DNA of 64,000 bases from Exiguobacterium sp. s146 (lineage in GTDB: Bacteria > Bacillota > Bacilli > Exiguobacteriales > Exiguobacteriaceae): NCBI RefSeq assembly GCF_018618415.1, contig NZ_JACSMA010000001.1, forward strand, positions 992,001 through 1,056,000. The letters run 5' to 3'. The translations under genes and the position numbers were made by a program. Positions within the stretch are counted from its first letter, which is position 1, and each line of letters begins with the position of its first letter. Shown in pieces: positions 3,888 through 8,268 of this stretch. The notes below the pieces were generated by a model. It saw nothing but the letters and a program-made list of their open reading frames with translations. It was not told where the DNA came from and searched no databases.

Positions 3888-4619
3888 TTGATCACATTAT
3901 GCATCGCGGACGACAATCGAGAAATCGTCGATTTGTTGACCCGCCAACTCGAGTCCGAAGACGATTTAAAAGTCGTCGGGACCGCCTACGACGGCGAGGC
4001 ATGCTTAGACGTCGTCAAGACACACCAGCCGGACGTGCTTCTGCTCGACATCATCATGCCTCACCTAGACGGTATCGGTGTCCTCGAACGATTACAGACG
4101 GAATTGGCGCACGCCAAGCCGGAAGTGATTATGCTCAGTGCGTTCGGGAAAGATGAGGTCACGAAGCAGGCCGTGCAACTCGGCGCTTCTTACTTTTTGG
4201 TCAAGCCGTTCAACATTCAACAACTGATCACGAAAATCCGTGAACTCGCCGCCGGTTCGAGCCGAGAGTTCGAGGCGATGTCGCCGGAAGAACTCGATAT
4301 CTCGTTGTTGTTGCAACAGCTCGGCATCTCGCCGCGCATCAAAGGATTCAAGTACATCCGTCAAGCCGTCGTGTACGTCCGGGAGCGTCAGGAACTGCTC
4401 GGATTGATTACGAAGGAGCTTTATCCGATGGTCGCGAAAGAACATGAGACGACTTCGTCGCGTGTCGAGCGGGCGATGCGTCACGCCATCAAGACGGCTT
4501 GGGAAAACGGGATGCGCGATCATGAGATGTTCGACGGACGCCCCGAGCGCGAACGCAGTCCGAAAAACTCGGAATTCATCTCCTATTTCGTCACGTATCA
4601 ATCGTTCAAACAACAATAA
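3888..4619 (+). CDS. spo0A: Response regulator Spo0A
   Basis: Phosphorelay-controlled transcription factor, 243 residues (Bacillus about 267). Receiver domain at residues 1-120 with the phospho-acceptor region LLLDIIMPHLDG; C-terminal Spo0A DNA-binding domain with the diagnostic helix SRVERAMRHAIKTAW. The start is TTG immediately after the recN stop, served by GAAGGGGTG inside recN, so translation is probably coupled. The interdomain linker is shorter than in Bacillus. Exiguobacterium is generally regarded as non-sporulating, so here Spo0A probably controls stationary-phase or biofilm functions (inference). Confidence 0.95.
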   Translation: MITLCIADDNREIVDLLTRQLESEDDLKVVGTAYDGEACLDVVKTHQPDVLLLDIIMPHLDGIGVLERLQTELAHAKPEVIMLSAFGKDEVTKQAVQLGASYFLVKPFNIQQLITKIRELAAGSSREFEAMSPEELDISLLLQQLGISPRIKGFKYIRQAVVYVRERQELLGLITKELYPMVAKEHETTSSRVERAMRHAIKTAWENGMRDHEMFDGRPERERSPKNSEFISYFVTYQSFKQQ

Positions 4620-4622
4620 ACG

Positions 4623-4652
4623 ATCAGGAGGCCCTCCTCCTGATTTTCTTTT
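4623..4652 (+). terminator. Intrinsic terminator after spo0A
   Basis: 9-bp stem 4623-4631 with 4636-4644, then a T-rich tail. It separates spo0A from the RNA transcription unit downstream. Confidence 0.9.
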
Positions 4653-4662
4653 ACTTTGTGAA

Positions 4663-4699
4663 AGAAAGCGCTTGCAAATCGAGCGAAACTTGTTATAAT
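4663..4699 (+). promoter_or_regulatory. Sigma-A promoter with overlapping cre (CcpA) site for the RNA gene
   Basis: -35 TTGCAA (4672-4677), 16-base spacer, perfect -10 TATAAT (4694-4699). AGAAAGCGCTTGCA at 4663-4676 matches 12 of 14 positions of the CcpA consensus TGWAANCGNTNWCA and overlaps the -35. That geometry predicts repression on preferred sugars. The expected transcription start is near 4706. Confidence 0.7.
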
Positions 4700-5158
4700 A
4701 AAGGTGTACCAAGTTACTTGGACGAGCGTCAGATGAACGCTTTCTAACGTGTTCCGGAACAGGTTAGAGCAAGAAATCATCTCGGACCGCTATCCGTCAA
4801 TAGCTCAGAGGTGGGAACGACATCTCAAATCGTCATCGTCCCGACGAGAGGTCGCGACGTTCGCTCATTCGCGAGGCGATTCCGGCATCGCGTTCGAAGC
4901 TAGGGACCGTGCCGGGGAAAACGAATCGTTCAGTTGACCAAAAGGAGTGTTGTCAACCGTTGAACAGTTTATGGCAAGCGTTCGACTTCACGATGGATGG
5001 TTCGACATGACCCGATGAATAATCGTTAGTAACTCGAATGGGTACGTTTCCGTTCACGCAAGACGGCAGTTACTAATTTCTTTCAAACTTCTTCATTAAG
5101 AAGACCATTGGACCTCATGTCACAAGATTGTAGCAAGTAGGAAAGGAGATCATCCGTA

Positions 5159-5182
5159 GTGATCACAATTCAATACGAATAA
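5159..5182 (+). other. Possible 7-codon mini-ORF in the structured RNA
   Basis: GTG start reading MITIQYE then stop, 10 bases after a near-perfect ribosome site AAAGGAG (5142-5148). Hairpin GATCA/TGATC (5148-5152 with 5160-5164) would cover the start codon. This could be a leader peptide or chance. A second weakly supported peptide, MNSLWQAFDFTMDGST, could start at TTG 4960 behind AAAGGAG at 4941-4947. Confidence 0.3.
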
Positions 5183-5227
5183 AAAGGTTCCGCACTTGAA
5201 ATGAAGTCAAGTTAGGGAACCTTTTTT
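5181..5227 (+). terminator. Strong bidirectional terminator between the RNA gene and yqzF
   Basis: Outer stem 5182-5191 with 5216-5225, inner stem 5194-5199 with 5207-5212, T run after it and A run before it. It can therefore end both the RNA and the leftward yqzF transcript. Confidence 0.9.
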
Positions 5228-5231
5228 GTGT

Positions 5232-5480
5232 TCAAGAATCTATTCGTGGGACTTTGCCTGTTTTCTTGTCACGATTGAAGATATAACCTGCCACGAAACC
5301 GATCCCGCCCATCGCGATCAACAGTCCAAACGTTCCTTGTAACATCGAGGCGGCTGCCACCGACTCGATCCAAGAAAACGGGACGCTCGTCTTGAGGAAG
5401 AAACTGTCGCGAAGTAACTTGATGCCGTAGACACCGAAGAGGCCAGGGATGATTAAGATCAACAGTGCGATGATGCGCAT
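5232..5480 (-). CDS. yqzF: YqzF-like DUF2627 membrane protein
   Basis: 82 residues with two membrane helices (about 3-22 and 43-66), a family-typical LIPGLFGVYGIKLLRDS-like N-terminal segment and a basic C-terminus. This matches the DUF2627 family, whose B. subtilis member yqzF also sits beside bkdR; function unknown. Transcribed away from bkdR with an AAGGAGGAG ribosome site. It shares the terminator with the RNA gene. Confidence 0.8.
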   Translation of the reverse strand: MRIIALLILIIPGLFGVYGIKLLRDSFFLKTSVPFSWIESVAAASMLQGTFGLLIAMGGIGFVAGYIFNRDKKTGKVPRIDS

Positions 5481-5611: not shown

Positions 5612-7249
5612 ATGAATAAACGATTGATGATTGTCGGTGCGGGGAAAGGCGGGACCGAGGTGTTGAAAATGTTGCTCGACTCGCCGCTCGCCACCGTCGT
5701 CGCCGTCATCGACCCGGAGTCGACGGCCGAAGGGATGCAACTCGCACGGAACCAGGGGATTATGACGGCGGGAGATTGGCGGGCGTGTGCCGACAAACGT
5801 CTCGATTTTGTGATTGAGACGACTGGCCGCTCCGAGACGTTCGATGAATTGAAAGGACATTTCGCGGAAGCGGTCGTTCTGCCCGGCGAGTTCATCCGCA
5901 TCGTCGTCGAACGGTTGAAGCAGAACCAACAGATGCTCGAGGCGATTATCGACTGTACGAGCGAGGCGATCTCCGTCGCCGACCATCACGGGAACACGAT
6001 TTTAATCAACCCGTCCTATACGCGGCTGACAGGATTCAAGAAAGAAGACGTCGTCGACAAGCCGGCGACGGCCGACATCGGCATGCAGGAGAGCGTCCAC
6101 TTGAAAGTGTTGTCGACCGGGCAAGGCGTCCGCGATATCCGGATGCAAATCGGGGCGACGCGGCGCGATATTCTCGTCAACGCCGAACCGATTATCGTCG
6201 AAGGGAAATTGCGCGGGTCGGTCGGTGTCATCCGGGACGTGTCTCAAATTCGGGCGCTCCGTGACGAGCTGCAAGAAGCGAAGACGCGCATCCGCAACCT
6301 CGAGGCGAAATACCAGTTCGCCGACATCATCGCATCGAGCGACGCGATGCGCTTCGTCATCGAACAGGCCCGTCTTGCCGCGGTCACGCCGGTCACCGTC
6401 CTCATTCGCGGGGAGTCGGGGACGGGCAAGGAACTGTTCGCCCACGCCATTCATGGCGAGTCCCCGCGCAAATATAAGAAATTCGTCCGTGTCAATTGCG
6501 CGGCCATCTCCCCGACGCTCCTCGAGAGTGAATTGTTCGGCTACGAGAACGGCGCCTTCAGCGGGGCGAAACGTGGGGGCAAGGTCGGTTATTTCGAAGA
6601 GGCCGATGGCGGCTCGCTCTTCTTAGACGAGATTGGCGAACTGCCGGTCGATGTCCAAGTCAAACTGCTCCGTGTGCTGCAGGAGCATGAAATCGTCCGG
6701 GTCGGGGGCACGAATGCGATCCCGGTCGATGTCCGCATCATCGCGGCGACGAATGCCGACCTTGAACAGAAAGTGACGGACGGCACGTTCCGTGAGGACC
6801 TATACTATCGAATCAACCGGATGCCAATCCATATCCCGCCGCTCCGGGACCGGCTCGAAGAAATCGAGCCGCTCTGCGAACGCATCGTCCGCAAGCTGAA
6901 CCAAGAGTACGGGCGGAGCGTGCGCGGGGTGAACCGCGAGGCGACCGAGCTATTGAAGAATCAATATTGGAAAGGGAACGTTCGTGAGCTCGAGAACGTC
7001 CTCGGGCGGGCCATCATCTATATGGCGACTTCCGAGCAATGGATCGCGCCGCACCACCTGCAACTGTCACCTCGCGTCGCTTCGGCCCGACCGACCGATT
7101 CGCTGTCGTTACAAGACGCCGTCTCGCGCTATGAGCGGGATTTGATTGAACGGGCCATCGAGGAGGCGGACGGCAACAAGTCGGAGGCTGCGCGTCGATT
7201 ACACATTTCGATTCGGACGCTGTATAATAAACTCGAACGCATGCAATAA
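5612..7249 (+). CDS. bkdR: Sigma-54-dependent activator BkdR
   Basis: 545 residues. The N-terminus looks like a nucleotide-binding fold (MIVGAGKGGTEVLKML). A PAS domain lies at about 110-215, followed by an AAA+ sigma-54 activator domain with Walker A GESGTGKE near 268 and the sigma-54-contact loop GAFSGA near 313 (Ser where Thr is usual). A Fis-type helix-turn-helix (SEAARRLHISIRTLYNKL) is at the end. Activates the adjacent bkd operon with the sigma-54 (SigL) polymerase. ATG 5612 follows GGGGGAT. The gene lies directly upstream of a -24/-12 promoter and a palindrome suited to its binding. The probable ligand of the N-terminal fold is unknown. Confidence 0.92.
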   Translation: MNKRLMIVGAGKGGTEVLKMLLDSPLATVVAVIDPESTAEGMQLARNQGIMTAGDWRACADKRLDFVIETTGRSETFDELKGHFAEAVVLPGEFIRIVVERLKQNQQMLEAIIDCTSEAISVADHHGNTILINPSYTRLTGFKKEDVVDKPATADIGMQESVHLKVLSTGQGVRDIRMQIGATRRDILVNAEPIIVEGKLRGSVGVIRDVSQIRALRDELQEAKTRIRNLEAKYQFADIIASSDAMRFVIEQARLAAVTPVTVLIRGESGTGKELFAHAIHGESPRKYKKFVRVNCAAISPTLLESELFGYENGAFSGAKRGGKVGYFEEADGGSLFLDEIGELPVDVQVKLLRVLQEHEIVRVGGTNAIPVDVRIIAATNADLEQKVTDGTFREDLYYRINRMPIHIPPLRDRLEEIEPLCERIVRKLNQEYGRSVRGVNREATELLKNQYWKGNVRELENVLGRAIIYMATSEQWIAPHHLQLSPRVASARPTDSLSLQDAVSRYERDLIERAIEEADGNKSEAARRLHISIRTLYNKLERMQ

Positions 7250-7255
7250 TTTACC

Positions 7256-7289
7256 TGCACTTTTTTTCACACCATGCACAAAAGTGCAT
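7256..7289 (+). promoter_or_regulatory. Candidate BkdR upstream activating site
   Basis: Perfect inverted repeat ATGCAC-AAAA-GTGCAT at 7274-7289, with a further TGCAC half-site at 7256-7260. It lies about 32-65 bases upstream of the -24 element, an enhancer-like position. Assignment to BkdR is inference. Confidence 0.55.
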
Positions 7290-7302
7290 AGTAAACGACC
7301 GA

Positions 7303-7316
7303 TTAAAGCGCTTTCA
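7303..7316 (+). promoter_or_regulatory. cre site (CcpA) upstream of ptb
   Basis: TTAAAGCGCTTTCA matches 13 of 14 positions of TGWAANCGNTNWCA. It lies between the upstream palindrome and the -24/-12 promoter, where CcpA could block looping by BkdR. Confidence 0.65.
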
Positions 7317-7320
7317 AAAG

Positions 7321-7336
7321 TGGAAACAATCTTGCA
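7321..7336 (+). promoter_or_regulatory. Sigma-54 (SigL) -24/-12 promoter of the bkd operon
   Basis: TGGAAACAATCTTGCA fits TGGCAC-N5-TTGCW with the invariant GG and GC 10 bases apart. The context (activator gene upstream, degradation operon downstream) is as in B. subtilis. Confidence 0.8.
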
Positions 7337-7371
7337 TGATAAAAGATGAAGACAGGCAAGGGGGGACATGC

Positions 7372-8268
7372 ATGAATTTTGAACGGATGCTCGAAAAGGC
7401 ACAACGGCTGGACGGGAAAACCGTTTCGATTGCCGGCGCTGCCGACGTGGAGGTCATCCGCGCCGTCAAGCTCGCGACCGACCACGGTCTTTCCCGATTT
7501 AAATTGATTGGAGATGCCCGGGAGATTAAGCGGTTATGTGACGAGCACGGCATCGAAGAGGACGCGGTCGATATCATCCACGTCAAAGGCGACAAAGAGA
7601 TTGCCAAGCGGGCGACGCTCGCGGTCAAGACCGGGGAAGCGGATGTGCTCATGAAAGGAATGGTCGCGACGTCGACGTTCATGAAGGCCGTGCTCAGTCG
7701 TGAGACGGGACTCCGGACGAGCCGGACACTGAGCCATATCGCCTTGTTTCAAATTCCGAACCGGGAACGATTGATCGGGGTGACCGATGCGGCCATCCAC
7801 ATCGCGCCGACGCTCGAGGAAAAAGTGGACATCATCGCCAATGCGGTCGATGCGATGACGGACATCGGCTACGAGTTGCCGCGCGTCGCGGCCATCGCCG
7901 CCGTCGAAGTGGTCAATCCACAGATGGCTGCCACGACGGACGCCGCACTGCTCGCCCAAATGAACCGACGCGGCCAAATCAAATGCTGTGTCGTCGATGG
8001 ACCGCTCGCGCTCGATAACGCCGTCGATATGGTCGCGGCCAAACAGAAAGGCATCGCTAGCGAAGTCGCCGGACAAGCCGACCTATTGCTCGTCCCATAC
8101 ATAGAGGTCGGCAACGTCCTTTATAAGTCGATGATGTACTTTGCCGGAGCGAGCGTGGCGGCGATCGTCGTCGGCGCTAGCGCTCCGGTCGTCTTGACGA
8201 GCCGGGCCGATACGGCCGAGGCCAAACTGTATTCACTCGCGTTCGCGCTCTTGCACGCTAAAAAATAA
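7372..8268 (+). CDS. ptb: Phosphate butyryltransferase
   Basis: 298 residues of the phosphate acetyl/butyryltransferase family. Converts branched-chain acyl-CoA (isobutyryl, isovaleryl, methylbutyryl) to the acyl phosphate. Recognised by overall family resemblance (for example [15 protein letters not shown] and [14 protein letters not shown]) and by heading the ptb-bcd-buk cluster. ATG 7372 follows AAGGGGGGA; a nearer ATG at 7368 is in another frame and stops at once. First gene after the sigma-54 promoter. Confidence 0.93.

Follow-up and report, generated by a model that had tools for sequence, protein, structure and literature searches.

In this Exiguobacterium genome, about 610 bases separate spo0A (3888-4619) from a convergent DUF2627 gene on the minus strand (5232-5480). 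This gap holds what we take, with good confidence, to be a free-standing non-coding RNA gene that has been vertically inherited in the Exiguobacterium family and has so far been found nowhere else, and whose inferred transcript would fold and act in trans. The single-copy unit occupies positions 4662-5228 of the window (by which we mean the whole 64,000-nucleotide stretch of DNA analysed) and consists of a promoter with a cre-like site, a folded body of about 525 nt and an intrinsic terminator. The limits of the gene and its fold are well supported, and we infer its expression and mode of action. Read across the family, the sequences contain promoter and terminator signals, a conserved two-domain fold, long invariant loops, no common coding frame and a unit that can be separated from spo0A. 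The preliminary description had seen here the gene of a large structured non-coding RNA belonging to no recognised family, equipped with a promoter, a cre site and a terminator of its own, and the parts of it that could be tested held: the unit is conserved and folded, has no Rfam match, is present in all 38 family genomes, and carries signals that are kept among relatives. We refer to the window's own genus as genus 1 and to its sister genus as genus 2, with 19 family genomes in each. The landmarks of the locus are as follows.

3888-4619, plus strand: spo0A, the upstream neighbour (Pfam Response_reg and Spo0A_C)
4622-4645: terminator-like hairpin behind spo0A
4662-4677, plus strand: cre-like (CcpA) site AAGAAAGCGCTTGCAA, overlapping the -35, with one consensus mismatch on the minus strand and two on the plus strand
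4672-4699, plus strand: sigma-A type promoter TTGCAA-16-TGtTATAAT, with -35 TTGCAA at 4672-4677 and -10 TATAAT at 4694-4699
4704-5228, plus strand: RNA body of about 525 nt, with an approximate start set by the -10; all 38 family genomes have a DNA match
5184-5227, plus strand: intrinsic terminator, with a stem at 5184-5223 and a T run to 5227, found in all 38 copies by a regular-expression search
5232-5480, minus strand: DUF2627 gene (Pfam PF11118), the convergent neighbour

The promoter has a 16-nt spacer and a TG-extended -10 and agrees with the consensus at 10 of 12 positions. All 38 copies have TATAAT, and 36 also have the longer TTGTTATAAT. A cre-like site with varying flanks lies over the -35 in every one of the 19 genus-1 genomes, as judged by eye, with the score computed for 10 of the 38 sequences against a cre consensus that we take to be WTGNNARCGNWWWCAW. 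The natural inference from this position is repression by CcpA under good carbon sources, and control by CcpA in genus 1 seems to us reasonably likely. In genus 2, again by eye, a similar site lies upstream of the -35 in 10 of the 19 genomes and is missing from the other nine. Those nine copies (L041, L042, L046 and L053-L058) have AATATTC at about the same place (by eye), perhaps the site of another regulator. At the other end of the gene, the terminator is preceded by an A run and followed by a T run, so it could serve both convergent genes, and it is probably common to the RNA and the DUF2627 gene. A simple terminator scan did not list 5184-5227, probably because the stem contains inner loops. 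All 38 copies have the same terminator loop, CTTGAAATGA (5195-5204 in the window); for an ordinary terminator such constancy seems unusual.

No known RNA family accounts for the gene. Rfam 15 gave no match over the gathering cut-off anywhere in the window, tmRNA included, and with lax filters it gave only sub-cut-off matches with E of 0.23 or worse, among which OLE was not listed. RNase P, SRP and 6S RNA were rejected as identities because each is found elsewhere in the genome over its cut-off. What is generally seen in a large structured bacterial non-coding RNA gene is seen here, namely a conserved fold with compensating changes, non-coding character and transcription signals of its own, with one all-pairs covariation test, described below, on the other side. 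We found no description of this RNA in the literature, which does not prove its absence from print. Predicted sRNAs were counted in Exiguobacterium in PMC10837837, the examined parts of which do not describe it, and the main texts of three structured-RNA surveys (PMC6429828, PMC8632094 and PMC11109978) contain no mention of Exiguobacterium.

The distribution of the gene follows the family. In a 41-genome set, a DNA search with the window unit matched all 25 family genomes and none of the 16 others, and a query from the sister genus matched all 38 family genomes, 19 per genus. We built two covariance models, R1 for the 3' domain and R2 for the 5' domain. Under strict filters each gave exactly one match per genome in the 38 family genomes and none in 360 other genomes of the class, and R1 matched only the window's own genome among 398 genomes of the phylum, some of them also in the class set; such filters score few candidates per genome and could miss weak relatives. 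A two-motif pattern scan of an 84,980-species collection matched 24 contigs, all titled Exiguobacterium, and there was no match in 72,556 plasmid and 50,697 phage records. The only viral-contig match to the pattern (L126) was rejected, being negative with R1 and lying in unrelated surrounding sequence. For positional relatives we took 30 other genomes, 25 of which had a Spo0A match, and kept the 21 near-full-length matches while dropping four partial ones. With filters off, the surroundings of spo0A in these 21 genomes gave nothing beyond chance: the best foreign scores were 12.8 bits for R1 (E 0.36) and 9.9 bits for R2 (E 1.3), and a family control (L041) scored 136 and 115 bits in the same search. 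DUF2627 lies within about 1.4 kb downstream of spo0A in one of the 21. The family's common ancestor probably already had the RNA gene, which, within the reach of these searches, occurs in no other lineage.

The same searches bear on the idea that the gene is a mobile-element or phage RNA, resembling GOLLD, ROOL or HEARO, that became fixed in the family. GOLLD is encoded in phages and prophages. RNAs of this kind are also large and ornate, and the invariant CCGG-containing loop and variable hinge of the present RNA add to the likeness to GOLLD and ROOL. According to PMC12286853, both form homo-oligomers with symmetric kissing loops, and ROOL has a variable linker and is encoded in phages and prophages. 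The present RNA differs in being chromosomal, with a kept place, one model match per genome and no Rfam match; since it is also absent from the plasmid and phage records, and the lone viral-contig match was not found by R1, we regard a mobile origin as extremely improbable.

Conserved neighbours raise another question, namely whether the element acts in cis, either as a 3' extension of spo0A or as a long leader or attenuator of the downstream bkdR-ptb operon. We compared 30 loci (24 named and 6 fetched, the sets overlapping). DUF2627 and bkdR follow the RNA in all 30 and spo0A precedes it in 26, which together with the conserved terminator favours a cis element; three of the other four loci hold at most 1,254 upstream bases. 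However, spo0A has its own terminator-like hairpin and the RNA apparently has its own promoter, and the terminator and the next plus-strand gene lie about 380 bp apart, on either side of a convergent gene. Furthermore, other genes come between spo0A and the RNA in some genomes. In one Exiguobacterium sub-clade a gene with a RibD_C domain intervenes (tested in L031, 1481-2059, minus strand), and in L075 (E. flavidum) a transposase gene with rve and HTH_21 domains occupies the expected place of spo0A (6640-7587, minus strand); in G045, probably the same genome as L075, spo0A is on another contig (L152). These intervening genes argue that the RNA is independent of spo0A transcription, and in the 30-locus sample the RNA is separable from spo0A but not from DUF2627-bkdR. 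On balance we consider a cis element quite improbable. In one sister-genus locus (L154, G042:C1:524681-525148) the Spo0A match covers only query residues 83-240, and the front part of that spo0A looks to be missing or altered.

Next, we considered coding potential. No common frame of at least 30 codons was found on either strand in ten sampled copies, with coordinates compared by eye. This is in line with the earlier view that no protein gene fits, and a conserved reading frame, which had been put forward as evidence that would tell against an RNA gene, was looked for and did not overturn it. There are two short candidates, each behind a Shine-Dalgarno-like site.

4940-4954, plus strand: invariant AAAAGGAGUGUUGUC, Shine-Dalgarno-like, in 38 of 38 copies
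5159-5182, plus strand: 7-codon open frame after the second Shine-Dalgarno-like site, of the same length in 38 of 38 copies, with peptide VITIQYE or V[NK][PT][IT]LY[ET]

The RNA could accordingly be read as a dual-function or small-protein mRNA, in which one or both sites drive tiny peptides and the structure controls their translation. Both purine-rich motifs are present in all 38 copies, and the 7-codon frame varies in genus 1 only between TAC and TAT; its constant length leaves room for a small-peptide role. Against this, the 16-20-codon frame that follows the first site (4940) encodes peptides unrelated between the genera, and most changes within genus 1 alter an amino acid (by eye). The GTG of the 7-mer lies 10-11 nt past GGAG, which is rather far, and the second site can pair in helix P16. 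Peptides this short would also leave a conserved fold of 525 nt unexplained, and we therefore hold the small-protein reading to be improbable and return to a non-coding RNA.

The fold was evaluated on an alignment set of 38 copies comprising 37 distinct sequences. The minimum free energy of the whole RNA has a z-score of -3.79, or -2.67 without the terminator, with none of 100 shuffles as good in either case, and two genus-2 copies gave -3.58 (0 of 100 shuffles as good) and -2.21 (2 of 100). In the automatic alignment of the 19 genus-1 copies, 97.4% of 2584 cells are paired and 13 pairs are changed on both sides; when partners are slid, only 29.5-43.3% of cells are paired and two to five pairs are two-sided. 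Across genera, 18 copies were chosen and aligned automatically; here the 5' domain is paired in 99.1% of cells with eight two-sided pairs (slides, 0-1) and the 3' domain in 97.0% with four (slides, 0-2). Column shuffles reached the observed count of two-sided pairs in 3 of 500 cases for genus 1, 49 of 500 for the 5' domain and 382 of 500 for the 3' domain, so that across genera this count carries little weight by itself. In each of the three sets, all 500 shuffles fell short of the observed value for three other measures: the share of cells that are paired, the count of cells showing two-sided change, and the covariation score.

We also applied a tree-aware helix null in which substitutions were reassigned along branches in 100 replicates. 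On automatic alignments, the inner and outer parts of P7 (E<0.01) and P3 (E 0.03) stand out in genus 1, and P3 and a P6 hairpin (both E<0.01) in genus 2, and the best helix of the automatic joint alignment was P11 (E 0.09). On a joint alignment anchored by hand with the helices in mind, which leans towards the proposed structure, eight helices including P11 reached E<0.01, and a pairing outside the proposed structure (4713-4716/4935-4938) reached E=0.03. An unsupervised all-pairs test (G-test, tree-aware null, 60 replicates) gave no significant pair among the copies, the best being E=1.6. With 37 distinct sequences in two tight clusters this test has little power, and we still count the result against the fold. 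The check for conservation and covariation among relatives that the preliminary description had proposed did not overturn the RNA reading: many helices carry compensating changes, although the unsupervised test is not significant. P8, one P12 pair and P14 (the last in the automatic alignment) are imperfect, and invariant helices (PK1 and most of P10) prove nothing.

As we draw it from the alignments, the RNA has a 5' domain made of P1-P7, and a 3' domain in which P10 encloses P11-P15. The elements of the 5' domain, all on the plus strand, are listed here.

4709-4721: helix P1; 98.9% of cells paired, one of five pairs two-sided
4725-4741: helix P2 (AGCGU/ACGCU, in genus 2 GACGU/ACGUC); 100% paired, two of five pairs two-sided
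4731-4782: pseudoknot PK1, between the P2 loop AGAUGA (4731-4736) and UCAUCU (4777-4782); complementarity only, invariant in the 37 distinct copies, with the motifs in 38 of 38
4744-4767: helix P3, with an invariant CCGGA apical motif (38 of 38); tested separately, genus 1 gives E 0.03 and genus 2 E<0.01
4789-4804: helix P4; 100% paired in genus 1, 95.8% across genera with two of four pairs two-sided
4808-4826: helix P5; 100% paired, three of six pairs two-sided
4828-4881: P6 three-way arm in its genus-1 form; helices 92.1-100% paired; genus 2 has other hairpins, one with E<0.01
4882-4915: helix P7, with loop UCGAAGCUAGGG at 4894-4905; in genus 1 seven of nine pairs two-sided, 91.2% paired, E<0.01

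P3 is paired in only 88.3% of cells in genus 1. Around P2, a longer pairing with about 4777-4791 is the favourite of single-sequence energy minimization; we judged it less likely than the P2 hairpin with PK1, given that compensating changes between the genera preserve the hairpin. A long-range pairing of 4817-4823 with 4947-4953 is almost fully complementary; it overlaps P5 and P8 and was left out of the structure. The P7 loop reads UC[GA]AAGC[UA]AGG in all 38 copies. Two interpretations of this loop were dropped because variants, inspected by eye, break the motif in question: that it is a palindrome for dimerization, and that its UUCGAA is a T-loop.

RNA lengths are 524-532 in genus 1 and 558-753 in genus 2. 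Six genus-2 copies of 670-753 nt owe their size to an insert at the hinge between the domains, and in both of the inserts tested it is a tandem repeat with a unit of 9-10 bases: about 19 copies of AAGCAAGACC in one (L055, 1307-1497) and 11 copies of AAGACCAGC in the other (L053, 1400-1501). The junction therefore tolerates up to about 200 extra bases. The remaining helices, likewise on the plus strand, lie from the hinge onwards.

4933-4957: helix P8, doubtful; does not form in genus 2, and has one pair disrupted in 7 of the 19 genus-1 sequences
4959-4986: helix P9 (genus 1); 99.2% paired, without two-sided change
4994-5156: helix P10 (4994-5000/5150-5156), which closes the 3' domain; 100% paired, every change being one-sided
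5004-5121: helix P11 (5004-5010/5115-5121); three of five mapped pairs two-sided between or within genera
5012-5111: helix P12 (5012-5017/5106-5111); one pair broken in 7 of 19 genus-1 sequences
5026-5076: helix P13 (5026-5034/5068-5076); three of six core pairs two-sided with genus 2, 100% paired
5050-5066: helix P14, from the hand-anchored alignment; 85.6% paired in the automatic alignment, which shifts it
5088-5103: hairpin P15, CUUCUU(CAUU)AAGAAG; 100% paired, one of six pairs two-sided
5077-5148: pseudoknot P16, between UUUCUUUC (5077-5084) and the Shine-Dalgarno-like GAAAGGAG (5141-5148); 96.1% and 97.2% paired, one-sided G-U/A-U changes only

P13 is the 9-bp long-range stem singled out earlier, and it is real, being paired at 98.8% in 19 sequences and two-sided at three of its six core pairs in the sister genus. 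P16 would cross P11 and P12, and its Shine-Dalgarno-like partner reads GA[AG]AGGAG. Among 12 conserved motifs, 11 are present in all 38 copies and the twelfth, TTGTTATAAT, in 36.

Sequence conservation is concentrated at loops and joints, each genome has a single match, and the fold has persisted through strong change in sequence; we therefore favour a folded, trans-acting RNA with protein or RNA partners at its invariant loops, and judged from sequence we think a free-standing, trans-acting structured RNA very likely. The best reading is of a lineage-specific, carbon-regulated RNA of this kind. RNA polymerase would make a transcript of about 525 nt, and in the presence of good sugars CcpA would repress its transcription through the cre-like site, throughout genus 1 and in some of genus 2. 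Once made, the transcript would fold and present the invariant CCGGA, UC[GA]AAGC[UA]AGG and AAAAGGAGUGUUGUC as contact sites. Its most probable role would be that of a scaffold for an RNP. As to the choice between such a scaffold and an antisense regulator, we put the scaffold at even chances, and favour it because what is conserved is the fold and not one accessible seed. The 3' Shine-Dalgarno-like GA[AG]AGGAG might be masked by P16, the opening of which could act as a switch; we are doubtful that it does. That the RNA forms oligomers through the CCGG loop is speculation, suggested by the palindromic kissing loops that PMC12286853 describes for OLE and GOLLD.

Known regulatory RNAs offer partial parallels. 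The small RNAs SR1 of B. subtilis and RsaI of S. aureus are CcpA-linked, stand-alone antisense regulators. They share with the present RNA their occurrence as stand-alone Bacillota RNAs tied to carbon control, but both are much smaller, and there is no Rfam match here. Staphylococcus aureus RNAIII is closer in form, at 514 nt, with its own promoter and terminator, many hairpins and C-rich antisense loops, and it has a dual function. The present RNA is of the same size class, also with its own promoter and terminator and many hairpins. It differs in having no Rfam match and no common ORF of at least 30 codons, and C-rich antisense loops were not recognised in it.

The closest comparison is with OLE (RF01071), which is likewise large (about 600 nt) and ornate, occurs in Bacillota, and has long conserved stretches. 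OLE lies in an operon, and the present RNA differs in having its own promoter and terminator. The preliminary description had noted a resemblance in size and neighbourhood with no oapA present, and indeed both RNAs belong to the dxs-tlyA-ahrC-recN-spo0A cluster, as seen for OLE in four Bacilli genomes outside the family. This likeness would be accounted for if the RNA were an OLE that has diverged strongly. However, under strict filters the OLE covariance model found nothing at E<=10 in the 25 family genomes, and it scored over 500 bits (E<1e-146) in 4 of the 16 others. A blastn comparison of the two RNAs gave, among the best 20 rows, a best piece of 27 nt with E 1.7. A relative of OapA, searched with the ORF directly after OLE in L095 (its identification resting on position and co-occurrence rather than on a family model), is absent from all 25 family genomes and is found, among the 41, in exactly the four with OLE, leaving 12 of the 16 others without both. 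The slots also differ. In all four of these genomes OLE precedes dxs or tlyA, and in three the presumed oapA comes immediately after OLE; the present RNA, restricted to one family and without similarity to OLE in sequence or covariance model, lies past spo0A. According to PMC11332333, OLE and OapA are almost mutually inclusive, and the absence of OapA from the family genomes therefore argues that this RNA is not OLE. On these grounds OLE was rejected as its identity, and a highly diverged OLE is very improbable.

Few bacterial RNAs of more than 500 nt have intricate conserved folds, and several of these are still without known function. All 38 species sampled here, from a group that can be cultured, have one such RNA, which the searches did not find in other organisms. 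The lineage has no detected OLE or OapA, as is also true of 12 of the 16 other genomes, and the same cluster holds a different large structured RNA there; if expressed, it merits its own Rfam family. In H. halodurans, according to PMC10898510 and PMC11332333, OLE is linked to growth on poor carbon sources. A bolder and unlikely extension is that the present RNA would be a large RNA machine in its own right and play in Exiguobacterium the part that OLE plays elsewhere: carbon-regulated, essential or nearly so, assembling with itself (for example through the P3 CCGG loop) and with proteins, with a housekeeping or stress task and possibly catalytic. Among the four genomes with OLE, one (G036) has it directly upstream of dxs with no adjoining oapA-like ORF (L098, 4938-5560), and its OapA relative lies on the same contig about 600 kb off (G036:C6:37479-38039).
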